From Bacteriovorax stolpii (lineage in GTDB: Bacteria > Bdellovibrionota > Bacteriovoracia > Bacteriovoracales > Bacteriovoracaceae): DNA of 33,193 bases. Below, one piece after another: positions 13,710 to 29,154 of the stretch (positions within the stretch are counted from its first letter, which is position 1; each line of letters opens with the position of its first letter). The stretch spans positions 1 through 33,193 of the forward strand of contig CAMDQH010000026.1 of NCBI GenBank assembly GCA_945905815.1, in the 5' to 3' direction. Under the pieces are notes generated by a model. It was not told the origin of the DNA, searched no databases, and saw only the letters and a program-made list of their open reading frames with translations. Made by a program: the position numbers and the translations under genes.

Positions 13710-13864
13710 TGTTGAGACCAGTTGGAATAAAGACGTTTCAAACTTGAACATAGTGACAAGTAGATCCCTTAAGTCATTAAAATAACGAAAGGTATATGGC
13801 ATTCTTCTATCTTAGACGCTTACAAAGCAAGTTGCCATTTATGGCAAGAAAAGATAGGATAAAT

Positions 13865-14152
13865 ATGAGCCGTAGAGAATATCACATTTGCATTAACCTA
13901 AATGACATCTTTATTACAAAGGTTGTTATCGACTCACATTATGAAGCGAAACATAACGAAAGTATTAATGATGAAATAATTTTAAATTTAGTGCAGCGAT
14001 TAGACGGAAAATTTTTTGAGGCAATTGATAATAAGCCGCCATATTGTTATTTTTTAACTTACGTGAGTTTAAACAACAAAAGATTTAAAATCATATGGTT
14101 GCTGGAAGAAGATGACGTCTATATTGGTATAATTAATGTTCATAGGAGTTAG
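13865..14152 (+). CDS. putative toxin, DUF4258-like
   Basis: The product is 95 residues. The pattern matches the DUF4258/BrnT-like RelE-fold group: an early SHYEAKH (like the S/T-H-A-x-x-R of that family), then SINDEIILNLV, then strands ending FKIIWLLEEDDVYIGIINVHR. The frame is open to 13796, but AGGA five bases before the ATG at 13865 decides the start. The HTH gene begins two bases after this stop, and its AGGAG site lies inside this gene's last codons, so the pair is coupled. The toxin-first order is like higBA. Toxin activity is inferred from architecture. Confidence 0.6.
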   Translation: MSRREYHICINLNDIFITKVVIDSHYEAKHNESINDEIILNLVQRLDGKFFEAIDNKPPYCYFLTYVSLNNKRFKIIWLLEEDDVYIGIINVHRS

Positions 14153-14154
14153 AA

Positions 14155-14463
14155 ATGAGATTCCCAAATAAAACGGAAATTGAAAGAGTTGTCGAAAAAA
14201 TTAAAAAAGAGAAAATTAAAGGGACTCTTGGTCTTAACGAAAATCCTAGTCCATTAGAAAGATTTCGTTGGGATCTATGCCAGAAGTTTATTAAATATAA
14301 AAAGGTTCATGGCCTCAATCAAAAACAATTAGCTGAACTGCTTGAAGTGGATGAGGCAAAAGTAAGTAAAATTCTTCATCACCGAATTCATGAGTTCTCA
14401 ACAGATAGGTTAATTGCGCTTTATTCAAAGCTTGATCCTGATATCAGGCTTAAAGTTGGTTGA
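14155..14463 (+). CDS. HTH (XRE/HigA2-like) antitoxin
   Basis: The 102-residue product has a helix-turn-helix at about 54-75 (LNQKQLAELLEVDEAKVSKIL) followed by HEFSTDRLIALYSKLDPDIRLKV, the signature of HTH_37-type antitoxin/repressors. The first 35 residues are lysine-rich and may contact the toxin. It probably neutralises the upstream product and represses the operon. The 3' end overlaps the 3' end of the opposite-strand ChaN-like gene by 43 bases, an unusual antisense arrangement. Confidence 0.8.
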   Translation: MRFPNKTEIERVVEKIKKEKIKGTLGLNENPSPLERFRWDLCQKFIKYKKVHGLNQKQLAELLEVDEAKVSKILHHRIHEFSTDRLIALYSKLDPDIRLKVG

Positions 14464-15832: not shown

Positions 15833-15956
15833 TTCACAAAAGCCATCAAACAGGTCTTGTCAGGTACCCTAATCGTTTCTTACATCTCATTCAAAAGTCC
15901 CGATAGCCCTTATTCTATTCAGGACAATACTTTTATTTTTTACAAGGACGTTGAAA

Positions 15957-17537
15957 ATGAAGATCAAACTTCTTAGTGGGTTGGCCTTGGGCCTGTGTGC
16001 CTTAAGCTCATGGGGACATGTAAATGTTCAAGATGTTTCTGGTGCCCGCCTTTATGATTTTTCTGTTGATAGTATCAGAATCTCTCAAAAGAATATCGAT
16101 GGCCTTGATTATCAAACCGCCAAGATGGTGGGTGTTGAAGGTTATGAAGGTATTCATTATCAAATAGGTGCTCCTGAACTTCCAGTAATTCGTTTTGAAG
16201 TTAGTGCAAACTCAGCTTCTGATATCTTGATTACTGAAAGAAATTTCAAGTCAGCGCTTTCTTACAAAGTGAACAATTTAAGGCCAGTCTTTGAAGCAGT
16301 GGAGAAAGTACCTGGTGCTCGGTACATGCTTTCAAAAAGTTCTTCTTTGAATATTACTGAAAGCTACAGCATCAAAGAATTAGGATCAGTCAGAGGTCAA
16401 AAGAATTTTCTTGTTACACTTTATCCGGTTCAGTTCACGAATAATTATTTAAACATCTCTCGTTCTTTTGGTGTTGAAGTGAAACTAGCAAATGCTGAGA
16501 AGGCCGTAGATAAAAAAGGCTTAGTTTTCGTCGTTGGAAATACCTTTAAATCATCTCCGTCTCTTGCAAAATATGTTGCTCTTAAAATGTCACTAGGTTT
16601 TGAGGTTGATCAAATTGATGCCGGTACTATGGATGCTGATCAGATTCGCACAGAAATAAAGGCGCTTTACGCTCGCAAGCCGCAATTGAAATATGCCATC
16701 GTCGTTGGTGATGCTGAGGATGTTCCGGCAAAAGATTCAACTCTCATCGCTGGTATTACTGATCATTATTATGCTTCAATTGATACTGCTGATTATTCTA
16801 CTGACATCCTTACGCCTGACCTTAAGGTTGGCAGATTTTCAGTAACTAGCGAAAAAGAACTTGCAGTGCTTGTAGATAAATATTCCCTTTATATCAAAGG
16901 AAATTTTACTAACATGAGTTGGATTAGCCATCTTGCTTTCTTGGCAACGGATGATCGCTACGAAGTTGCAGAAGGTACACATAACTATGTCTCAGATACT
17001 TATACAAAAGTTAAGGGATATACTGGATCATTCCCGCGCGCGAATGAAGCGGGTGGTGATAAACTTTATGCCATCACTCATAAAGCAGCGACTGCCGATG
17101 TTATGAAGTCTTTACTTAAAGGTAGAAGCATCGTGAACTATTCAGGTCATGGAGCAACTACTTACTGGGCCGGACCTGAAATTGACCAGGATAATGTTCG
17201 TTCATTAAATTATTCATCACTTCCATTTGTTATTTCTAATGCCTGTATAACAGGAGATTTTCGCGTATCTGAATCTTTCGCTGAAACTTGGCAGCGCCAT
17301 CAGTGGGGAGCAGTAATGTTTTGGGGTTCGATGGATTCAACTTATTGGGATGAAGACGATATCCTTGAAAAAAGAATGTATGACGGGATCTTTAAAGATA
17401 AGAAAATTATTTTTGGAGAAATTACTCACAATGCTTTGACTGAGCTTGCCAAATTTTATGGCGGCGAAGGTAGTTCGGCTTATTATTGGGAAACTTACCA
17501 TATGTTTGGTGACCCATCGATGGATCTTAGACTCTAA
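15957..17537 (+). CDS. secreted gingipain-type cysteine protease (peptidase C25)
   Basis: The 526-residue product has a signal peptide (about 1-22), a propeptide-like region to about 175, and a C25 catalytic domain. Catalytic His398 lies in NYSGHGA and Cys430 in SNACITGDF. The family segments YAIVVGDAEDVPA, DHYYASID, KVGRFSV and YHMFGDPSMDL are also present. Gingipains are secreted Arg/Lys-type endopeptidases. Unlike those of Porphyromonas, there is no adhesin or C-terminal sorting domain: the protein ends right after the FGDPS motif. The frame opens from a TTG at 15951, but AAGGA precedes the ATG at 15957. It is probably used to degrade external proteins. Confidence 0.92.
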   Translation: MKIKLLSGLALGLCALSSWGHVNVQDVSGARLYDFSVDSIRISQKNIDGLDYQTAKMVGVEGYEGIHYQIGAPELPVIRFEVSANSASDILITERNFKSALSYKVNNLRPVFEAVEKVPGARYMLSKSSSLNITESYSIKELGSVRGQKNFLVTLYPVQFTNNYLNISRSFGVEVKLANAEKAVDKKGLVFVVGNTFKSSPSLAKYVALKMSLGFEVDQIDAGTMDADQIRTEIKALYARKPQLKYAIVVGDAEDVPAKDSTLIAGITDHYYASIDTADYSTDILTPDLKVGRFSVTSEKELAVLVDKYSLYIKGNFTNMSWISHLAFLATDDRYEVAEGTHNYVSDTYTKVKGYTGSFPRANEAGGDKLYAITHKAATADVMKSLLKGRSIVNYSGHGATTYWAGPEIDQDNVRSLNYSSLPFVISNACITGDFRVSESFAETWQRHQWGAVMFWGSMDSTYWDEDDILEKRMYDGIFKDKKIIFGEITHNALTELAKFYGGEGSSAYYWETYHMFGDPSMDLRL

Positions 17538-17643: not shown

Positions 17644-18453
17644 ATGAGTCAGGCACAATTGTCCCAACTTTCTCCTGCAGAAAAATTTGATTTGGTTCGT
17701 GGGCTCTACGATTACCCTTTAAGTACTTCAGTTGCGAAGGGCTCTAAGAAATCAGCTAAAGATTATGAAGGTGTTTGCGATGGTTGGACCGCATCCGCGA
17801 TACAGTTTGCAGAACCAAAACCCGTTACAGTTACAAATCCAGATGATGTTGTTATTCCTTTTGGATCATCAGATGTGAAGGCCCTCATGTCTTATGACGT
17901 TTCAATTAATCAACCAGCTGGCATAATGAAGAGTGTCTTCGCTGGAAAATACTGTGTTAACCCTGTTGGCATAAGACTTGGTACAGCGAACTGCACTGAT
18001 ATTAACCCTGGTGCGTTCCACGTAATTCTTGCTAACCAGATTGGCATTAAGAAAGAATCATTCGCTGTCGATATTGACCCAACTAGAGAAACATGGAACC
18101 AGCCGGTTTACGGGTTTGAGTTTGATATCAAAGGAACAACTAAATCAGAGCATGCTGCAACTGCCTATATTGTTCATGCAAAATTTTTATATGCTGAAGA
18201 TGATCCTGAAGGTGCTGAAGAGAAAAAGAATGTTTTTACATGGGAACCGACAGTTGGAACAGTCAAATATAATGGTGCCGTTTTGGAGTGCGATTACATT
18301 CTTGAAGTTGATTATTCAGGCCGCATTACCGGCGGAGAATGGCTTGGGGCTTCGAAAGGTAATCACCCGGATCTTTTCTGGATGCCAACGAAAAAAATTC
18401 AATTTACTGAAGAATTTAAGTTTTTAGATAAGGTTTATAAGCCGTTTATGTAG
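17644..18453 (+). CDS. GP42/elicitor-type transglutaminase
   Basis: The 269-residue product resembles the Phytophthora GP42 transglutaminase family (TGase_elicitor). It has a probable nucleophile Cys45 in YEGVCDGWTASA, His126 in NPGAFHVIL, and the Pep-13-like core TWNQPVYGFEF (Trp151, Pro154). Pep-13 is VWNQPVRGFKVYE, and its Trp and Pro are needed both for enzyme activity and for recognition by plants. The enzyme forms protein crosslinks. Oddly, no signal peptide precedes it: the frame closes upstream at 17596 without an ATG, and the ATG at 17644 has no good ribosome-binding site. It may be 5'-truncated, or it may be exported another way. Confidence 0.8.
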   Translation: MSQAQLSQLSPAEKFDLVRGLYDYPLSTSVAKGSKKSAKDYEGVCDGWTASAIQFAEPKPVTVTNPDDVVIPFGSSDVKALMSYDVSINQPAGIMKSVFAGKYCVNPVGIRLGTANCTDINPGAFHVILANQIGIKKESFAVDIDPTRETWNQPVYGFEFDIKGTTKSEHAATAYIVHAKFLYAEDDPEGAEEKKNVFTWEPTVGTVKYNGAVLECDYILEVDYSGRITGGEWLGASKGNHPDLFWMPTKKIQFTEEFKFLDKVYKPFM

Positions 18454-18473
18454 TTTTTATTTTTATGATGTTG

Positions 18474-18500
18474 CCGGTCCTCAAAGGGGCCGGTTTTTTT
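18474..18500 (+). terminator. intrinsic terminator after the transglutaminase
   Basis: CCGGTCC (18474-18480) pairs with GGGCCGG (18487-18493, one G-U) around TCAAAG and is followed by seven T. Confidence 0.9.
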
Positions 18501-19100: not shown

Positions 19101-19430
19101 ATGAAAATGAACTGTCTCCGACAAGATGATTGGACTGTGATGGTTTTAAATGGGGACGTAGATTCATTTACCTATTCTATCTGGGCCAAGGAACTCAACG
19201 TTCTGATGCGAACTGGTATTAAGAAGTTGCGTTTAGATCTTTCTGGCGGTTCTATTTTTAATCTCAAGAGTATGCAGATGGTGGTAAAAGTTTTAGAGGA
19301 ACTTCAAGATAGAAAGGGAGAACTGGAAGTTGTCGGTGTAAGCGAAGAGACCCGAGAGATGATTGAACTCATGGTAAAGGCAAAAACAAATCTTGAAATT
19401 GAACGCCTAAATTTTATAGAGCGGACTTAA
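19101..19430 (+). CDS. STAS-domain protein at the head of the RND operon
   Basis: The 109-residue single-domain protein has a STAS-like fold: VMVLNGDVDSFTYSIWAKEL, GIKKLRLDLSGGSIFNLKSMQMVVKVLEEL, then GELEVVGVSEETREMIEL. The usual phospho-acceptor DS(S/T)G loop is replaced by NLKSMQ, so it may be a binding module and not a classic anti-anti-sigma switch. A TTG lies at 19098, but AGG eight bases before the ATG at 19101 favours that start. The TolC-like gene begins two bases after this stop. STAS partners are known in MlaB of the Mla ABC lipid transporter and in SulP carriers; pairing with an RND pump is unexpected. Confidence 0.7.
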   Translation: MKMNCLRQDDWTVMVLNGDVDSFTYSIWAKELNVLMRTGIKKLRLDLSGGSIFNLKSMQMVVKVLEELQDRKGELEVVGVSEETREMIELMVKAKTNLEIERLNFIERT

Positions 19431-19432
19431 AC

Positions 19433-20776
19433 ATGATAAGAATGATTCTTCTTTCTGCAATACTTATTTCTTCACCATTAGCTTACTCAACAAGTTTTCA
19501 AGATCTGATAACTCAGATGGAAAATTCCAATCCTGATTTAAAAATGGCCAAACTACAAAATGATTTTTTAGAAAATAATATTGTTATGGCCAAGAGCTTG
19601 CATTTCCCCAGACTCAACTCAAGTTGGGTTGCGAACAAAGGTGAGGAGCAAGATTCGATAAGTACTTCTGCGCTCAACTCTTCGCTCTCTGGTGGTGGTG
19701 CCGGAGGACCGGCAGTCCCCGGCTCACAAATTCCTGCGGGATCTCAGAATTTCTCAAGCGATGGCTGGTTAGCGGATTTAACAATGTCATTACCCGTTTT
19801 TACACGTTTTCTGGCACAAACGTCAGTGGATAATAGCCGGTTAGATTTTCAAAAAGATAAAATAACGTATGCACTTTCACGTGAAAGTAAAAAAGTTCAA
19901 TTAGCACAGGTATTACTTGAGATAAACTCACTCCAGAATATTCATCTGACGCTGAATCAAGGTCTTGCCCTTTTGGAAAAAGCTCCTCATAATACCGGCA
20001 TTTCTGGCAAAGACAGTGAGCTAAAACGGGCCGAATTCACTTACGAAATGGAATATCATTTTGAAAGAGTTAACCTCGCTTTGCAAACTGCCTATATGGC
20101 GATTAAAGATCTTATTCCGGATTTGACTGAGAAAGATCTAAAACAACTCCCGAAAATCGAAGTAAAATATCAGGAAAAAAGTCTGGATGAAATTCAAAGA
20201 TACTATCTTGAGGACTCCAGGGAACTTCAACAGTTTAAGTACACGTCTAAAGTATTCGAAAATACCTATTCACAGACACAATGGGAGCGGTCATGGATTC
20301 CCTATACGATGATTCAAGGTTCCTATTCTCAAAGCGCCACCTTTCAGCAGGGCGATCTTTCTGATACCTGGCGCGTTTCCATACTCGTGACTTTTAATCT
20401 GTTTGACGGTTTTTACACTGAAACCAGAAGGGCGCAAGCCTTTACTGCAAAAGAAATCGTGAGGAAAAGAACTGAGTCAGAGATGTCTAAAAATAAAATT
20501 CTTATAACTAAAAATTATTATGATCTCAAAGCAGCGAGGGCCGAGTATAGATTTCGAAAATCCTCTGTTGCAAGAAAAAAAGAAAAACTTAAAATGATTG
20601 AAAAAATCGGCTCAAGTGGTATCTCCATTGATTTTGAGCGCTCTGGCCTGTTACTAGAAATCAGTCAACTTGAATGGGAAGCATTGGATGCTAAAAAGAA
20701 GGAACAGCAATCGCTGCTATTTTTAGCCCAGAAAAAAGATGACTTAGAGGGAGTTAGTTTTCATGAATCACTTTAA
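19433..20776 (+). CDS. TolC-like outer-membrane efflux channel
   Basis: The 447-residue product has a signal peptide (about 1-19). Two OEP-type halves follow: SFQDLITQMENSNPDLKMAKLQ with MAKSLHFPRLNSSW in the first, and WRVSILVTFNLFDGFYTETRRAQA in the second, with long coiled helices around 125-225 and 335-430. A Gly/Ser/Pro-rich loop (about 78-105) would be an extracellular loop. It acts as the exit duct of a tripartite pump. The last 14 bases overlap the adaptor gene, so translation is coupled. Confidence 0.85.
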   Translation: MIRMILLSAILISSPLAYSTSFQDLITQMENSNPDLKMAKLQNDFLENNIVMAKSLHFPRLNSSWVANKGEEQDSISTSALNSSLSGGGAGGPAVPGSQIPAGSQNFSSDGWLADLTMSLPVFTRFLAQTSVDNSRLDFQKDKITYALSRESKKVQLAQVLLEINSLQNIHLTLNQGLALLEKAPHNTGISGKDSELKRAEFTYEMEYHFERVNLALQTAYMAIKDLIPDLTEKDLKQLPKIEVKYQEKSLDEIQRYYLEDSRELQQFKYTSKVFENTYSQTQWERSWIPYTMIQGSYSQSATFQQGDLSDTWRVSILVTFNLFDGFYTETRRAQAFTAKEIVRKRTESEMSKNKILITKNYYDLKAARAEYRFRKSSVARKKEKLKMIEKIGSSGISIDFERSGLLLEISQLEWEALDAKKKEQQSLLFLAQKKDDLEGVSFHESL

Positions 20777-21407
20777 ACTTTTATTACTGGTTTCAACATT
20801 TTCACTCTCAAGTTGGGCAACTACCAATATGCCCTACGAACTAAAGACCTACGCCATTGTGAAACCTTCTAATATTTCTTCTTCCGTCTCGATCGGTTCA
20901 GGTCTAGTACAGAAGGTTCATGTCGAACTGGGCCAGGTGGTTAAAGTCAGTACCAGTTTGATCGAAATTCTTGAAGAGAATACTTTACGTGCTTACCGTT
21001 CATCTCTTGTTGGCCAAGTTGTGAAAATTCACGTCACTCAGGGTGCTGCTGTTTCACCTGGGATGCCGTTGGTAACTGTCATGGATCCAAAAGGGAAATT
21101 TTTGGAAATTACGCTTTCACCGGAAGAAGCGAAACTCATGTCTGTTGGTGCTAAGGTTCGGGACGCTAAGAGCAAAGAGGATTTGGGTGTGCTTGATTTC
21201 ATATCAAGTTTGGTAGACCCCGATAACGGGGGGGTCGTCGCACATGTTAAAAAATTCGGGCTTGGTAACAGAGTGGGCGAAGTCATTCATGTAGTCGTGC
21301 AAGTACCAGAGCTTAAATGTTCCAGGGTTATTGCAATGGATAAGCTGGATGATAGCGACAGATTCAAAGTAAAAGCAATTTATCAGAAGAAAATTTGTCT
21401 AGAATGA
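20763..21407 (+). CDS. very short periplasmic adaptor (membrane fusion protein)
   Basis: The 214-residue product has a signal peptide (about 1-19). Two lipoyl-like half motifs (SIGSGLVQKVHVELGQVV and SSLVGQVVKIHVTQGAAV) follow each other almost directly, so the alpha-helical hairpin normally placed between them (which reaches TolC) is missing. A beta-barrel-like region follows (LEITLSPEEAKLMSVGAKV). Standard AcrA-type adaptors have about 370-400 residues. Contact with the channel must be made differently, or by the lipoyl domain itself. It starts inside the channel gene and is followed 10 bases later by the RND gene. Confidence 0.8.
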   Translation: MNHFKLLLLVSTFSLSSWATTNMPYELKTYAIVKPSNISSSVSIGSGLVQKVHVELGQVVKVSTSLIEILEENTLRAYRSSLVGQVVKIHVTQGAAVSPGMPLVTVMDPKGKFLEITLSPEEAKLMSVGAKVRDAKSKEDLGVLDFISSLVDPDNGGVVAHVKKFGLGNRVGEVIHVVVQVPELKCSRVIAMDKLDDSDRFKVKAIYQKKICLE

Positions 21408-21417
21408 GAATATAGCG

Positions 21418-24402
21418 ATGATCAAACTTTTCATCCAAAAGGAAGTTCTGACCGTTTCCCTGAATTTGTTGATCCTGTTTCTTGGATTCTTCACTCTTCC
21501 TTATATTAGCAATGAATTTATTCCAAGTATCGAAATACCGGCGGTGGCGGTTGTTATTCCTGCACCCTTAATCGATCAGGAAAGACAAGTGCGAGAAATT
21601 ATTTTGCCTTTGGAGAAGCAACTCAAAAGTGATGGAAGTCTGGAAAATCTTGAAGTGCGAATGATGGATTCTAAAATAGTTTTTGTACTTTATTATTCAT
21701 GGAATCTTGAGGCCAGCGAGGCACTTCGTAAGGCGAGAGTTTCCTTTAGTAAGATTGCCCTTCCAGTAGAAGCCCTTGCTCCCATTTTTGTACTCCATCG
21801 ACCTTCTAATAGTCCGGTTCTTCGTACTGTCATTTATGGAAAAGAGATTACTGAAGTAAGTCGCAGGGGAAGAGAACTTAAAAGTATTATTGAGCGTATT
21901 CCGGGTGTAAGTGAAGTGAAACTACAGGGTAGTACTGAAGATGCAATGGGATTATTTATTGATCCGGTTAATCTTGCTCGCTACAAAATAAATGCATCTG
22001 ATCTAGTCGTTCAGGCCAAAGAGAAATGGAATCTTTCTTTTTTTAAAAATAATTTAAAGTCTGAACCTGTTTCTATACTGTTCAAAGTTGAAAAGGATGA
22101 AGTTGGTGGATTACCTGTGCAGACTCCGGTTGGGATAAAGAGTCTTAATCAACTGGCACCTGTCAGTGACCTTAACCGAGAATCTTTAGTCACTTTTAAT
22201 TCGGGAAATCCTGCTATTGTGCTTGAGATTATTAAAAGTCCTGGTGCGGATACAGTAACTATTGCAGATGAAGCTTTGGGTAAGATTGAGAACAATTTTA
22301 AGGCGATTAAAGACAAGACCTTGAATTTTAAAGTTGTTTATAATGAGTCGGAAAAAATCCAGGAATCTCAAAATAGTCTATTTGAAAACTTTGCCATTGG
22401 GGTGGTGCTTAATTCTCTCATTTTGATGTTTTTTTTAGGTTCCGGTGTTGGTGTCTTGGTGGCTTCAGTAGTTTTTCCTACAACGATTTTTGGTACATTC
22501 TTTGCCATGAAGTTTTTAGGTATTTCCATTAATCTTTTTTCTTTGAATGGATTTTCTTTAGCGGTTGGTATGATCACAGACGCTTCAATCGTCGTGCTTG
22601 AATCAATCGTGAGGCGTGTTCAAAAAGGTGAGAAATTATTTGAAGCCTCATTAAACGGAACCAATGATGTGGGAATGGGTGTATTTACCTCGACCCTCAC
22701 TACTGCCGGGGTATTGCTTCCCATAGCCATGCAGAAAAATCTTTCCTCAAAACTTTTTTCTGACCTGAGTCTTACTGTGGTGGCGACCCAGATTATATGC
22801 TTGGTTGCGGTGTTCAGTCTTGTACCTTGGCTATGTTCGTTTACATTATCTTCTTCAGATAAAAAGAATTTTGTTTTGTCCGGTTTATATAAAGTCTCCA
22901 GTTCCCTAGTAAACAGGATGGTGACTTACTCCGATTTTATAATCGCTAATGCAGTCCGAAACGCAAAATTTCGATATGGTTTTCCACTATTGGTCCTGGT
23001 GATTTCTCTTGGAGCAATATCATTTATGCCAGATACGGAATTCTTACCACAAGTTTCATCACGGATTTATGCCCTAAGTCTTCCCCTGAAAGAAAAAGAT
23101 CGAGATCAAGTTTCCAGAAAATATGCAAAAAGCTTTTCTGATACTTTTCAGAGTTCAGAGTTAGTGGATTGGAATTTGGTTCAACAGACTAGTGATGGGA
23201 TTGAAGTTTTAGTTGGTTATAAAAATGCAATGTCTAAAGAGGCGATTGTAGAGCAACTTAAAGGAAGGGAATTTGCCTCCCATGAAGTGAATATACTCCC
23301 TGTGGGACCGGCGCCGGCCGGTGAGAGTATGGGTTTTCACGGACTTTACTTTCTTTCGACTAAACTTGAAAAAGAAAAAAGGATGATGCTGACGCAGGCA
23401 CTATGTCGATCTAAAGGCGTCAATTATTGTTTAGGCCGAGAACAGAAACAACTTAATCGCTTTTCACTTTTTCCAAGAAGTGTTTCAATGCAACAAGCGG
23501 GACTGACTTCGATTGAGTCAACCTCGCAGCTTATCTTTCCTATTCACTCTATAGATCTTTTGAGTTTTACCAGTTTTAATCTGAATACTCCCTTCTATCT
23601 TCACTATGATGAAGCCTTGGATATTTTGAATCTGCCTTTGGAGATTCAAGGCAACTGGCTTATTAGTCTTGGTAGCTTATATGAAAAAAGCCTCACCACT
23701 TTTGATAGTATCCGGATGAGATTGAATGGAGAGGAATATTACCCTTTGTACTTCCGTCTTAGAGAGGGAACTTTGGGTAAAGTTGATCAGGACATGCATA
23801 AGATTATGGAAGAAAAACATATTGATTCACAAAATATGTTGGGTAGGGGACAACTCGAAACGATGAATGAGACTTTTGGTTCTATGATTGAGGCCCTTGC
23901 TTTGGCAGGTCTGATTGTTTTTTCCATTTTATGGATTCAGTTTAAAAGTTTTGCACAGGCGAGTGTGATTATGTCCACGATCCCATTGACATTGGGTGGA
24001 GCAATTTTAGGACTGGTGCTTATGAATGAATCTGTTAACGCCTCAGTGATGGTGGGCTTTATTCTTTTGGTCGGGATTATTGTTAACAATGGAATTTTTC
24101 TGACAGAGGGGACAAACGCTAACCTCAAAGAAGGCATGGACGTTAAAGAAGCTGTCCGGCTTGCCACTGAGGAAAGGACTCGACCGATATTAATGACTAG
24201 CTTCGCAACTATCTTCGGCATGCTTCCGACTCTTTTAATTGGAGGGGAGGGAAGCGAACTTTATAGAGGAATGGCAGTGGTTAATATCTTTGGCATGTTC
24301 GTAGGAACTCTACTGTCACTCTTAGTCACTCCTATTCTCATTATGTATCTAGGATGTAGAGAACATTTAAAGCGCGAGATTAATACAGGGGCAGCTCAAT
24401 GA
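21418..24402 (+). CDS. RND-family transporter, catalytic subunit
   Basis: The 994-residue inner-membrane protein has RND topology: TM1 at about 11-30, porter region to about 320, TM2-6 at about 325-475, TM7 at about 520-537, a second porter region to about 825, and TM8-12 at about 826-980. TM4 holds the proton-relay site as SLAVGMITDASIVVLES, with one Asp (D388) where AcrB has the pair DD. TM10 has VGFILLVGIIVNNGIFLTE, with Asn890 and Asn891 near the position of the AcrB Lys. It is therefore likely to be proton-driven but of a divergent class. The second porter region is somewhat short. The stop overlaps the PII-like gene (ATGA). Confidence 0.88.
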   Translation: MIKLFIQKEVLTVSLNLLILFLGFFTLPYISNEFIPSIEIPAVAVVIPAPLIDQERQVREIILPLEKQLKSDGSLENLEVRMMDSKIVFVLYYSWNLEASEALRKARVSFSKIALPVEALAPIFVLHRPSNSPVLRTVIYGKEITEVSRRGRELKSIIERIPGVSEVKLQGSTEDAMGLFIDPVNLARYKINASDLVVQAKEKWNLSFFKNNLKSEPVSILFKVEKDEVGGLPVQTPVGIKSLNQLAPVSDLNRESLVTFNSGNPAIVLEIIKSPGADTVTIADEALGKIENNFKAIKDKTLNFKVVYNESEKIQESQNSLFENFAIGVVLNSLILMFFLGSGVGVLVASVVFPTTIFGTFFAMKFLGISINLFSLNGFSLAVGMITDASIVVLESIVRRVQKGEKLFEASLNGTNDVGMGVFTSTLTTAGVLLPIAMQKNLSSKLFSDLSLTVVATQIICLVAVFSLVPWLCSFTLSSSDKKNFVLSGLYKVSSSLVNRMVTYSDFIIANAVRNAKFRYGFPLLVLVISLGAISFMPDTEFLPQVSSRIYALSLPLKEKDRDQVSRKYAKSFSDTFQSSELVDWNLVQQTSDGIEVLVGYKNAMSKEAIVEQLKGREFASHEVNILPVGPAPAGESMGFHGLYFLSTKLEKEKRMMLTQALCRSKGVNYCLGREQKQLNRFSLFPRSVSMQQAGLTSIESTSQLIFPIHSIDLLSFTSFNLNTPFYLHYDEALDILNLPLEIQGNWLISLGSLYEKSLTTFDSIRMRLNGEEYYPLYFRLREGTLGKVDQDMHKIMEEKHIDSQNMLGRGQLETMNETFGSMIEALALAGLIVFSILWIQFKSFAQASVIMSTIPLTLGGAILGLVLMNESVNASVMVGFILLVGIIVNNGIFLTEGTNANLKEGMDVKEAVRLATEERTRPILMTSFATIFGMLPTLLIGGEGSELYRGMAVVNIFGMFVGTLLSLLVTPILIMYLGCREHLKREINTGAAQ

Positions 24403-24701
24403 TAAATATGAAAGCAGCGATGATACTTTTTGATAGTGAACTTCGAGAAGAAGTGTTCATGATTATGAAAATAGTTGAGATCGTTAATTATACTCTCATG
24501 CCTAATCTTTTTGGCTCGGGAAACCAGGGAAAAAAAGAAGGTAGTGTTGCCTGGCCAGGTACGAACGAAATTGTGCTGTTGGTGGTAAATCCCGATCAGT
24601 ACCAAAAAGTTAAAGATGAAATTCATCGTTTTAAAATAAGTAAGGCGACTAAAGAAGGACTTCTGCTCTTCTCATGGACATTAGATGAGGTGGTGGTGTG
24701 A
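24399..24701 (+). CDS. PII-like, PG0541-type transporter-associated protein
   Basis: The 100-residue cytosolic product has a ferredoxin-like PII/CutA-like pattern: KAAMILFDSELREEVFMIM, then the loop PNLFGSGNQGKKEGSVAWPG, then TNEIVLLVVNPDQYQKVKDE and GLLLFSWTLDEVV. The GSGNQGKKEG...AWPG.N loop fits what I recall of the PG0541 family encoded beside RND pumps in Bacteroidetes; this is from memory and was not searched. It overlaps both RND genes by four bases (ATGA in front, GTGA behind), so it is made in step with them. It is probably a sensor that binds the pump. Confidence 0.7.
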   Translation: MINMKAAMILFDSELREEVFMIMKIVEIVNYTLMPNLFGSGNQGKKEGSVAWPGTNEIVLLVVNPDQYQKVKDEIHRFKISKATKEGLLLFSWTLDEVVV

Positions 24702-27307
24702 TTTTAAAGCTTCTTAATTATATAGCCCAAAAAAGAAATATCGCATTTGCGCTATTAATGATCCCTATGTTTATTGGTTTTTATTTCGCCATAACCCAGC
24801 TAACGCCTTATCCCAAATCACATTATCACTATGTTGATATTACTTTTGAAGCACCTTCAAAAATGGCCAGGGATCTTGAATCTCTTGTTTCTGAAAAAGT
24901 TGAAAAAACGCTTAATGGTGTTCAAGGTCTCATCTCATTTGACACAACTATTCAGCATGAAAAAGTGCAAGCGCATCTGATGTTTAATGCATCCATGGAT
25001 GAAGATAAAATCCATCTCTTTCTCCAGGAAAAATTAGACGTTCTTAAAATTCAGTTAGGCAGCGTGGTTAGGGAAATAAAACTCGACTTTATTCAACCCC
25101 CGGAAGAAGTAATTTTCACCATCACTCCCGGAAAGTCTGATCTTACTGAAAAAGATTGGAAAAAATGGGATGAATTGGGTCTGAAGATCAAACAAGTTTT
25201 ACCTGCTCCTAATGATGGAAAAAGAGTGATGATTGAACCCAAACTCGCGAGTCTCGTGGAGTTTGGGATCAGTCTTGATCAGCTAACAGGCTCCTTACGT
25301 CTTAGTGGTTTGTCCTATCAGTTGGGTGAGAAAAATGGAAAGAGTTATTACCTTGAAGGAAGAAAAGAAAATATATCCGAGCTTAAGCAAACAATCGTGG
25401 GGGCCAAACAAGAACGCATAATCAAGCTTTCAGATGTGGCCAATGTTATTGAAGTGTTCAGAGTCTTGCCATCCAGTTTTGGCATCTACCCACTGACGAG
25501 TCTTCGCAGAGAGGAAGTCGAAGGACTTAAAAAAGAGCTCGTTTTGCTTTTCGGGCTTAGTCATTTAACAGATCATCGTACGCAGAACTCCTGGTCTACA
25601 ATTTCTGTTCATTTAGGTGAAATACTTTTCATTGTGAGTGTGTTCGCCTTGGCTTTTTATTTCATTTTTCATCACTTCACAGCCTCAGCGAGCGTTATCA
25701 CTTTTTCACTTTTTTTTATTGGACAATTTCTTTTTTGGACCGGCCTTAAAGGTGAAAAAATATCACCCCTTCACTTTGAAGCGATTAATGTGTCATTGAT
25801 TATGGGTTTATTTCTTTGGGGTGTCTATCTTGCCCGCATTCGTTCGTATTTTCTACCACATAAATTGGAAGTTTTTATTCAACGAAAATTGGGTCAGGCA
25901 ATTCTTTTTACATATGTGGAATTTTTACCGACACTTTTAACATTGATGGCACTTTTTTTGGTTTTTTCTTTGCCCTTACTTCTTGGAGGTTTCAGTCCCA
26001 TCTCCAAAGAGATAATAAACCTTATCCTCTTATTAAGTTTCCCTTTGCATCTCTCTCTCTTTTTGATTATGAGTCTTTTTACTCCCATGGAATGGATTAA
26101 AAAGTCCAAGACAAAATCTGTTGGATTATTTCCCAATAAACTAAGAGGGAATATCAGTCTTAAATTGCTTTTCCCTTTTTTGATTCTTCTTTTGTCTTCT
26201 CCATGGATCAAAGAAAAGGTTAAGTACCGTCTGGAGAACACAGAGGATTTAATTAATAAAGAATGGAGTGATTATCTGAGAGGATATGGACCTAAAGCCC
26301 TTTATTTTGCTCCTGAGAATAAGGAAAGTACTTATTATAAAGTTGTTAAACAAACAGAATTTCAAATGATTCAGGAATGGTGGATAACATCCAATGGTCT
26401 TCACCAATTGAAGGGCAGAAATCTTTTCAATCTTCAAAAGTCTCTTGAAGATTACTCTCTTTCTACCCGCCTTTTAAACTTAACATCTGGAGATCCAGTG
26501 GTGATTAGTTTTCCTGCGACAATGGAGGCAGATGATTTTGGTCTTTTACTGGTATCTGGTGAAAAGGACATCCCCTCAATTTATTTGAAACAGATAGCAC
26601 GTCCTGTAATTGAAAAGAGAGAGAAAATCATCATCAGAAGTCAGATGGATCGAAGGATCCTTGTTGTGACAAAGGACTTATCAGAATTTCCTCTTTTAAA
26701 GAAGGCCAATTTGCAAATGACGGCCCTTACCCTTCGCCTTGAAGGTGAGTTCGCGGCTTATAAACGCAACTTTTGGACAGTAGCGCTTTTTTCATTTATT
26801 ATTTTTTCACTATATTTTAATTCTTTTGTCCGAGGCTTAATGGCCTTGATCTTTTCTCAAACCTTTTTGATTCTTCCTTCGGTTTTGGCATTTCTGGGCG
26901 GCTTTGCATTGCCTGTGGATAGCCTGCATCTATCTACTCTTGTAGGGTGGTTCCCTATTGTGCTGTTGTTATTTTTAAGTCGTTCTGTGGATATTGAAAG
27001 GTTAAGGGGAAATGAGAAGGAGAGTTCTGTTTCCGTTGTCTCAAGTCAACTTTATGCTGCGTTTAGCGCACTTGGAGTGGCGTTAATTGTGACACTATTT
27101 TGCTGGCCTCTGATTTCGAAAAGTGGCATGAACCTGCTTCCACAGACCATGGTTGATCTTGGAAGTTACTATGCCACTTTTACCCTTGTTTCGCTTTATT
27201 TGCTCTTTAGCAGTGCATTCAGACTTTTCTATATCTCCACTGAGCAGCACATTGACCGTCTAATTATCAGGATGGCCAAGTATTATTATCGAATCAAGAA
27301 ATCTTAA
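24698..27307 (+). CDS. second RND-like subunit lacking the proton relay
   Basis: The 869-residue product has RND topology. TM1 is at about 13-35, followed by a porter-like region with PSKMARDLESLVSEKVEKTLNGVQG (the family's entry helix), and then TM2-6 at about 305-462. TM7 is at about 488-504, followed by a short second porter region (about 505-690) and TM8-12 at about 691-845. In TM4 the family GLLVDDA is replaced by GLFLWGV, so no acidic relay remains (Trp374, Gly375). It therefore cannot pump alone by the usual mechanism and is probably a structural partner of the upstream RND protein, as MdtB and MdtC pair in E. coli. The start is a GTG within GTGA. Confidence 0.78.
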   Translation: MILKLLNYIAQKRNIAFALLMIPMFIGFYFAITQLTPYPKSHYHYVDITFEAPSKMARDLESLVSEKVEKTLNGVQGLISFDTTIQHEKVQAHLMFNASMDEDKIHLFLQEKLDVLKIQLGSVVREIKLDFIQPPEEVIFTITPGKSDLTEKDWKKWDELGLKIKQVLPAPNDGKRVMIEPKLASLVEFGISLDQLTGSLRLSGLSYQLGEKNGKSYYLEGRKENISELKQTIVGAKQERIIKLSDVANVIEVFRVLPSSFGIYPLTSLRREEVEGLKKELVLLFGLSHLTDHRTQNSWSTISVHLGEILFIVSVFALAFYFIFHHFTASASVITFSLFFIGQFLFWTGLKGEKISPLHFEAINVSLIMGLFLWGVYLARIRSYFLPHKLEVFIQRKLGQAILFTYVEFLPTLLTLMALFLVFSLPLLLGGFSPISKEIINLILLLSFPLHLSLFLIMSLFTPMEWIKKSKTKSVGLFPNKLRGNISLKLLFPFLILLLSSPWIKEKVKYRLENTEDLINKEWSDYLRGYGPKALYFAPENKESTYYKVVKQTEFQMIQEWWITSNGLHQLKGRNLFNLQKSLEDYSLSTRLLNLTSGDPVVISFPATMEADDFGLLLVSGEKDIPSIYLKQIARPVIEKREKIIIRSQMDRRILVVTKDLSEFPLLKKANLQMTALTLRLEGEFAAYKRNFWTVALFSFIIFSLYFNSFVRGLMALIFSQTFLILPSVLAFLGGFALPVDSLHLSTLVGWFPIVLLLFLSRSVDIERLRGNEKESSVSVVSSQLYAAFSALGVALIVTLFCWPLISKSGMNLLPQTMVDLGSYYATFTLVSLYLLFSSAFRLFYISTEQHIDRLIIRMAKYYYRIKKS

Positions 27308-27384: not shown

Positions 27385-29154
27385 ATGAATTCTATTTTTG
27401 TCATATTCATTGGTTTGTTATTAATTCCTATCCATTCACACGCATCCGTTATCAAAGTCAAAAGCGAAATGGGCCAGCCACTGTCCGGAGTCATGGTGAC
27501 TCAATCACTGGCCAATCCCGCTCCTGCAGATACGTCCGACGATGGTTACCAGCAGCCCAATACCCCAAGGTTTGCAGCACCAGATATAACTGGCTTCACA
27601 GACAGTAAGGGATCAATAACTCTGCCTGATCGCGAAGGTGTGAAGTACCGCTTACGTAAGATGAAATATGTGGATCAGGAAATAGTGGCCAAGACCGGTG
27701 AAAAGAAATTTCAGGCCGTCATGAATATTGAGACTGATATTTTTAAGTTGGCCGATCAAAAACCGGCGAACGTATGGCTGGGGGCCCTGGATGTGGGAAC
27801 TCCTGAGGATAAAATCATTTTTAAAATGCAGTGTGGGTTTTGCCATCAACAAGGTAACGCTTTTACTCGTGCAGATCGATCTGAGGAAGATTGGAAAGTC
27901 GTTATTAGTCGCATGATTGGTTACGGGTCAAGATTATCGTCAGACCTTCAGGAAAAGCTGCCTAAGGTCTTATTTGAAAATTATAAAAAGCTAACAGAAA
28001 ACCCAAAACTTTTAGGGGAGAGTGCCCCGTGGTCGGAGAAGCTTTCAGGTACCACCATTACGGAATGGCCGATCGGGGATAGCATGTCCCAGACGCATGA
28101 CATGCTGATAGCTAAAAGCAAATTGCTTTATGTTTGTGACAATATTCAAGACCGCATTTATGAAATAAACACAATCACAAACATGGTTGCAGTATATAAA
28201 ATTCCTCACAGAGACGGCGAGGAGAATGGTGGTCTAATTTCGGGTCGCTTGAGAGAGTTTCCTCGTCACGACAGTACTTCCAATGCCCATTCAATGGCCG
28301 AATCAAGAGTCGATGGTCACATCTTTATTACGCCTTCGGCCCAGCGCCGTTTAGTGGAGTTTGATCCACAAACGAAAAAGTTTACATTACATGAAATGGA
28401 AGAAGGCTTCTATCCTCATACCATCCGAGTGGATGCAAAAGATAATGTTTGGTTCACCATGGCACTTTCTAATCAAGTGGCAAAATTCGATCGTTCCACA
28501 AAAAAATTCACCATGTACGATTTGCCAGCTAGAAGTTTTAAAGAAAAAATCATAACAAAAAACATTGGATTTATTTTTAAACTCATTGGCTGGGGAATTC
28601 CCCTTAACAAATGGTTAAAGATTGACCGTGTTTCAACAGGAGCTCCACTTTTATATGGAATTGATATCACTCCGGACGGTATGGTTTGGTTTGCACGACT
28701 TCATACTAAAGATATAGGTAACCTTGATCCGGCCACTGGGAAAATAACCATGATCCCGACACCTTTCTGGGGACCAAGAAGAATTCGTACAGATGCAGAA
28801 GGGAACCTTTGGATTGTTTCATTTGGTGAATCTTTATTGGCACGCTATAACCCCAAAACTGCCAAGTTCAGCATGTTCGATTTACCAGTAAAACCTAAAG
28901 GCAGTGAAACGCCTTACGCGCTTAATGTGGATAAAAAACGTAATGTCGTTTGGGTCAATGGAAATCAATCTGATGCACTTTATGGTTTCGATATTAAAAC
29001 AGAGACATGGAAATTCATCCCATATCCAAAACGAACAACTTTTACTCGTGATGTGGAAATTGATGAAGACGGTACCTTGTACACTTCCAATTCAAATTTT
29101 CCAAGTTGGCACGTTGAAGGCGAGCAACCGACACTGATTCAAATCAAGCAGTAG
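27385..29154 (+). CDS. secreted haem-motif and Vgb-like propeller protein
   Basis: The 589-residue product has a signal peptide (about 1-20) and then three parts. First is a carboxypeptidase-regulatory-like beta-sandwich (about 22-115; KSEMGQPLSGVMVTQS, GFTDSKGSITLP). Next is a short region with one c-type haem motif, CGFCH (Cys150, Cys153, His154), and a nearby Met in SRMIGYGSRL. Last is a virginiamycin-B-lyase-like propeller (about 215-585) with repeats such as HTIRVDAKDNVWFTMALSNQVAKF. It probably acts in the periplasm, perhaps as an oxidase or dehydrogenase using the haem. The substrate is unknown. AAGG precedes the ATG. Confidence 0.82.
   Translation: MNSIFVIFIGLLLIPIHSHASVIKVKSEMGQPLSGVMVTQSLANPAPADTSDDGYQQPNTPRFAAPDITGFTDSKGSITLPDREGVKYRLRKMKYVDQEIVAKTGEKKFQAVMNIETDIFKLADQKPANVWLGALDVGTPEDKIIFKMQCGFCHQQGNAFTRADRSEEDWKVVISRMIGYGSRLSSDLQEKLPKVLFENYKKLTENPKLLGESAPWSEKLSGTTITEWPIGDSMSQTHDMLIAKSKLLYVCDNIQDRIYEINTITNMVAVYKIPHRDGEENGGLISGRLREFPRHDSTSNAHSMAESRVDGHIFITPSAQRRLVEFDPQTKKFTLHEMEEGFYPHTIRVDAKDNVWFTMALSNQVAKFDRSTKKFTMYDLPARSFKEKIITKNIGFIFKLIGWGIPLNKWLKIDRVSTGAPLLYGIDITPDGMVWFARLHTKDIGNLDPATGKITMIPTPFWGPRRIRTDAEGNLWIVSFGESLLARYNPKTAKFSMFDLPVKPKGSETPYALNVDKKRNVVWVNGNQSDALYGFDIKTETWKFIPYPKRTTFTRDVEIDEDGTLYTSNSNFPSWHVEGEQPTLIQIKQ

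Follow-up and report, generated by a model that had tools for sequence, protein, structure and literature searches.

What does an RND efflux pump gain from a STAS protein, a PII-like protein and a second RND-like protein encoded in its own operon? The question is raised by a stretch of Bacteriovorax stolpii DNA (contig CAMDQH010000026.1 of assembly GCA_945905815.1; 33,193 nucleotides, hereafter the window), for which an initial annotation made from the letters alone had proposed a regulated heteromeric exporter, perhaps for lipid or a secreted product. The reading that we favor, with a probability of roughly 0.6, is an accessory, trans-envelope, heteromeric RND exporter that would be gated from the cytosol.

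The six genes lie in one tight block on the + strand, with the coordinates, gaps and overlaps first reported for them. A STAS-domain protein (19101–19430, 109 aa; Pfam STAS E 4.5e-8) precedes a TolC/OEP-type outer-membrane channel (19433–20776, 447 aa; Pfam OEP E 2.1e-18), a periplasmic adaptor (20763–21407, 214 aa; HlyD_3 E 1.1e-9), and an RND protein that we call RND1 (21418–24402, 994 aa; ACR_tran E 6e-110). These are followed by the PII-like protein (24399–24701, 100 aa; NF045581, NCBIfam PG0541_fam, E 2e-15) and by RND2 (24698–27307, 869 aa from a GTG start; ACR_tran E 1.6e-10, in the N-terminal third only). Intergenic spacings in operon order are +2, -14, +10, -4, and -4 bases, the PII-like gene overlapping both RND1 and RND2. 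Pfam and NCBIfam models agree with the domain names of the initial annotation, and for the PII-like gene NCBIfam supplies an existing family name, PG0541 transporter-associated. Between 19430 and 29400, 12 terminator-like matches were called, and the gaps among the six genes contain none of them. At the end of the gene upstream, a terminator-like hairpin (18473–18494, + strand; 1 found vs 0.5 expected) may set the operon apart from that gene. Elsewhere in the window, a small protein and the helix-turn-helix protein after it resemble a toxin–antitoxin-type pair (13796–14463), and two possible secreted factors stand in succession, i.e. a gingipain-type C25 peptidase (15951–17537; Pfam E 8e-49) and a transglutaminase-elicitor-like protein (17644–18453; Pfam E 2e-29). 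Downstream lies a secreted, virginiamycin B lyase-like beta-propeller with one CxxCH haem motif (27385–29154).

The six-gene block is a genuine conserved unit, and not a product of chance. Searched against 78 relatives, RND2 gave two clear matches (G047 and G033), both with the identical six-gene order. Across 369 genomes of the phylum, which are not independent samples, a profile search detected the short RND2 in 11; nine of these belong to the window's family and two to a second family, and all 11 also have the PII-like gene. Two relatives among the matches listed have public names, a Bacteriovoracaceae MAG and a Bdellovibrionales MAG. When the PG0541 model was run independently against these 369 genomes, it returned the same 11, five genomes of another family (f4), and one weak off-target match. 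When gene order was scored, as the initial annotation had advised, all nine loci with complete flanks (six genera, one family) kept STAS-TolC-adaptor-RND1-PII-RND2 with no insertions, including an orthologue of the TolC-type channel at the same place. The two second-family loci end at contig borders, and their visible parts (adaptor-RND1-PII-RND2 or RND1-PII-RND2) match this order. Identity to the window's proteins is 40–48% for RND1 and 20–29% for RND2, with RND2 at about 25–29% in the nine complete loci, and with values this low the kept order indicates that linkage has outlasted deep sequence divergence. Scattering of homologues in unrelated contexts had been named as fatal to the proposal, and within the phylum it is not seen for RND2 and STAS; PG0541 genes are not specific to this set, and in other phyla mostly stand after a single RND pump.

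Of 26 genomes in the window's genus, only the window's own has the operon, which by this measure is accessory. In a sister genome without the RND operon (G021), the beta-propeller gene and two further downstream genes are collinear with the window (76% DNA identity from 27450), while other genes, of signalling type, stand at the place of the operon end. Recent horizontal transfer was rejected on composition, GC being even across the window.

RND1 is the probable motor, and would be proton-driven. It has the features of an HAE-type RND permease, with an ACR_tran domain and Asp388 of TM4 in 9 of 9 homologues, and the TM11 Arg is also kept (motif columns, 9 homologues). In TM10, the relay Lys of AcrB is absent and is replaced by Asn-Asn (VNN). 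This variant is probably common among RNDs, given that a scan with patterns including GI[IV]VNNGI matched at least hundreds of RND genes. A metal-efflux type (CzcA/CusA) was rejected for RND1, which matches multidrug-type models best (RND_permease_2 E 1e-98 vs 5e-46 for CusA/CzcA). This comparison bears on whether the locus is simply an ordinary RND for metal efflux, equipped with a metal sensor of PII type. An arrangement of that kind has been described in Geobacter sulfurreducens, where PII-NG, a PII-superfamily gene, stands with CzcABC in an RND operon (GSU2134-2137; PMC7726332). However, that system has a metal-type RND, another PII subfamily, and neither a second RND nor STAS, whereas the PII-like protein here scores above the cut-off of the PG0541 model, and no metal-resistance genes adjoin the operon. 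Together with the type of RND1, this makes metal efflux highly improbable.

RND2 was described at the outset as lacking the proton relay, and rightly so: in 11 homologues there is no acid at the position of AcrB D407 (TM4), no acid in mid-TM10 and no relay Arg in TM11, i.e. the proton-relay residues of a functional RND permease are missing in all three helices. RND2 is also barely similar to RND1 in sequence. Its AlphaFold2 model (pLDDT 71.8, with low confidence in the C-terminal porter half) has 12 TM helices and two periplasmic porter halves, and Foldseek matches it to AcrD, OqxB, and AdeB (E about 1e-21; TM-score 0.53–0.59 by query length for AcrD/OqxB), which suggests an RND fold. The C-terminal periplasmic (porter) half is shortened, about 168 residues, and poorly conserved. 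Conservation peaks elsewhere. Specifically, the highest-conserved 15-residue window (residues 107–121) falls inside the segment that corresponds to the AcrB pore helix (residues 101–123, 24998–25066, + strand; placed by conservation and by alignment to full-length RND2), and the TM4-5 and TM10-11 loops on the cytosolic side are also among the best conserved parts. In the TM10-11 loop (residues 762–776, 26981–27025, + strand; motif xDxERxRGxD), 5 of 15 residues are invariant across 8 diverse homologues, a level reached by 8 of 20,000 random position sets, with the positions not being independent of one another. A cytosolic partner may dock at this loop.

One way to account for the lost relay, the shortened C-terminal half and the partial concentration of conservation in cytosolic loops is that RND2 is a separate RND-fold receptor or scaffold, which holds the PII and STAS proteins and controls an RND1 homotrimer from outside. 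We consider this unlikely, because the most conserved segment of RND2 is the pore helix equivalent, and because the full-length RND2 of the f4 operons retains the TM4 Asp and the VNN motif. The AcrB pore helix sits at the trimer core, and its conservation in RND2 suggests, by analogy with AcrB, that RND2 lies within a mixed trimer.

The PII-like protein belongs to the PG0541 family (NF045581; 56.3 bits vs a curated cut-off of 45) and falls below the Pfam P-II cut-off (E 8e-4; 20.2 vs 25 bits). Its AlphaFold2 model (pLDDT 84.7, T-loop disordered) has the beta-alpha-beta-beta-alpha-beta fold of PII, with CPII, SbtB, and GlnK as the best Foldseek matches, in agreement with the original call. Canonical PII proteins carry a GxGDGK-type B-loop. 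Here the B-loop is shortened and lacks this nucleotide motif of canonical PII (GlnB/GlnK), and nucleotide binding is thus unsure. The PII proteins of closest fold include some that dock on transporters, e.g. SbtB on SbtA and GlnK on AmtB (entries 7egk and 2ns1). PG0541 itself is a named, uncharacterised family, usually found beside single RND pumps; in Planctomycetota, the PG0541 profile retrieved ten loci, and in nine of these the PG0541 gene stands after an RND gene. The sole exception among the ten is a gene on a 7.2 kb contig without an RND gene (L151, 3335–3640). Taken together, the overlap of the PII-like gene with both RND genes, the habit of the family to follow RND genes, and the conserved loops of RND2 suggest docking and gating. 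A weak PG0541 match in G046 was excluded as a probable SbtB, as it adjoins a likely SbtA-type bicarbonate transporter gene. A likely SbtA-type bicarbonate transporter with an SbtB-like PII protein after it was noted in a relative of the window's family (L019, 8259–9551).

The STAS protein has no anti-anti-sigma phospho-acceptor Ser (FNLKS here vs ISSSG in an ancestral-type operon), and the site is missing from every window-type STAS aligned (11 operon STAS proteins in the alignment). No HATPase_c_2 (RsbW-type kinase) match rises over the cut-off in the window's genome, and the six-gene operon has no cognate kinase or phosphatase gene; two SpoIIE-domain matches lie elsewhere in the genome. With the phospho-site and the kinase both missing, there is probably no working partner switch in this genome, and we rejected that candidate. 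Also rejected was membership in MlaB (NCBIfam mlaB E 0.034, far below cut-off). MlaB is the small STAS subunit of the MlaFEDB lipid ABC transporter, and the likeness is that of a small STAS as a possible transporter subunit; MlaFEDB is an ABC and not an RND system.

The adaptor is reduced as well, with no alpha-hairpin between its lipoyl halves (a gap of ~69 columns vs ancestral-type adaptors of 378–389 aa), and consequently has no TolC-meeting hairpin of the AcrA-type tripartite kind. The BesA adaptor of Borrelia burgdorferi is likewise hairpin-less, with a short loop joining the two lipoyl halves (PMC3807786). BesA comes from another phylum and serves another pump, whereas relatives of the window's adaptor show the hairpin-bearing form.

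These losses invite the question of whether the six genes are merely co-transcribed, with STAS and PII acting elsewhere (on gene expression or another transporter) and RND2 being a decaying pseudo-pump. The STAS protein is highly diverged, with 17–31% identity to the other operon STAS proteins, and RND2 diverges much faster than RND1, both of which are consistent with this explanation. However, RND2 is an intact long frame with invariant motifs in 11 genomes, the linkage is unbroken in all complete loci, and PG0541 keeps its place after RND genes in nine of the ten Planctomycetota loci. We find the explanation improbable on these grounds, and return to the cytosol-gated heteromeric exporter.

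Fuller relatives of the operon indicate where its parts may have come from. In five f4 genomes, the operon encodes a HATPase_c_2 kinase, STAS, a SpoIIE phosphatase, TolC, a full adaptor, RND1, PG0541, and RND2, and the STAS keeps an SSG- or SAG-type phospho-site. As such, f4 operons hold all three elements of RsbW/STAS/RsbU partner-switching along with the phospho-site, whereas the window has STAS only, and without that site. The f4 RND2 is full length (1072–1078 aa) in G050, G309, and G312; its frame continues into the next protein in G058 (1251 aa) and is cut by the contig end in G310. In the planctomycete Candidatus Scalindua rubra (L076, 4432–18955), a sigma-54 activator, TolC, an FHA protein, adaptor, RND, PG0541, RND, and a STAS-Ser/Thr-kinase fusion stand together, and a second contig from the Planctomycetota search (L158) has RND-PG0541-RND. 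In the STAS part of the Scalindua fusion, an acidic residue lies close to the phospho-site (INGDG). Separately, in candidate division KSB1 (L122, 3109–7476), a SpoIIE-type phosphatase gene comes directly after TolC-adaptor-RND.

In profile comparison, the short RND2 is closer to the f4 RND2 (E 1.5e-18 over 399 columns) than to RND1 (6.8e-8). A quick, unrooted tree search with long branches places the window-type, f4, and Scalindua RND1 on one side of a branch (SH-aLRT 97) and groups the f4 RND2 with the Scalindua RND2 (SH-aLRT 99). From its sequences, the window's operon looks like a reduced descendant of the fuller type, in which the kinase, the phosphatase, the phospho-Ser, the adaptor hairpin and the RND2 relay have gone; the direction, from full to reduced, is what we infer. 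Read most simply, an old core of RND1, PII, and RND2, with signalling linked to STAS, would have undergone reduction in the lineage of the window.

How might the reduced form work? The inner-membrane part would probably be a hetero-oligomer of proton-driven RND1 and the motor-less, RND-fold RND2, which the hairpin-less adaptor would connect to the TolC-type channel. The PG0541 protein would dock from the cytosol, with the conserved TM4-5 and TM10-11 loops of RND2 as its likely site, and may gate the pump upon a small-molecule signal, as in GlnK-AmtB and SbtB-SbtA. STAS, in this view formerly the switch of a kinase-STAS-phosphatase module, may persist unphosphorylated as a docking or assembly subunit. 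A regulated heteromeric exporter thus remains the best reading of the locus, given the conserved unit, the relay-less RND fold, the PII fold and the kinase-STAS-phosphatase switch of the ancestral-type operon, even though PG0541 is not specific to the set and the STAS phospho-site and kinase have been lost. The suggested substrate fared worse, as the gene neighbourhood gives no support to lipid or a secreted product.

Several parts of this arrangement have precedents. PG0541 occurs with TolC-adaptor-RND in Porphyromonas, other Bacteroidota, Spirochaetota, Cloacimonadota, and Planctomycetota and, like here, the PII-type gene directly follows RND and matches the same NCBIfam model. Those loci usually have one RND, a full adaptor and no STAS, whereas the window has a second, motor-less RND and STAS at the front. 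MdtABC and MuxABC are two-RND pumps, with an MdtB2C1 heterotrimer (PMC7015380, PMC12802153); they resemble the present operon in having two RND proteins, which here would probably form one oligomer. By contrast, MdtB and MdtC are both full-length homologues, with no PII or STAS, whereas RND2 of the window has 869 aa and no relay. PII beside RND, two-RND pumps, and hairpin-less adaptors are already known. For an RND operon that includes STAS, with or without SpoIIE, and for a relay-free RND linked with a PII protein, the open-access literature that we searched gave no description.

More tentatively, and with rather less confidence than in the exporter itself, these operons may define a distinct class of RND exporter, present in at least two phyla (the window's and Planctomycetota), with a built-in, signal-gated RND1-PII-RND2 core coupled to STAS-based phospho-signalling. 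In one lineage, RND2 would then have become a motor-free regulatory subunit that relays a cytosolic signal to the trimer, i.e. an allosteric, post-translational form of control. The finding raises the question of why a heteromeric RND pump needs a motor-less partner, which is akin to the open question about MdtBC, and comparison of the fuller operons with the reduced ones offers a clear path to the role of each part. Control of RND pumps is understood as mainly transcriptional. If our reading is true, direct control from the cytosol would have a natural example here, in which a PII-fold protein, STAS and a motor-dead RND act on an RND pump.
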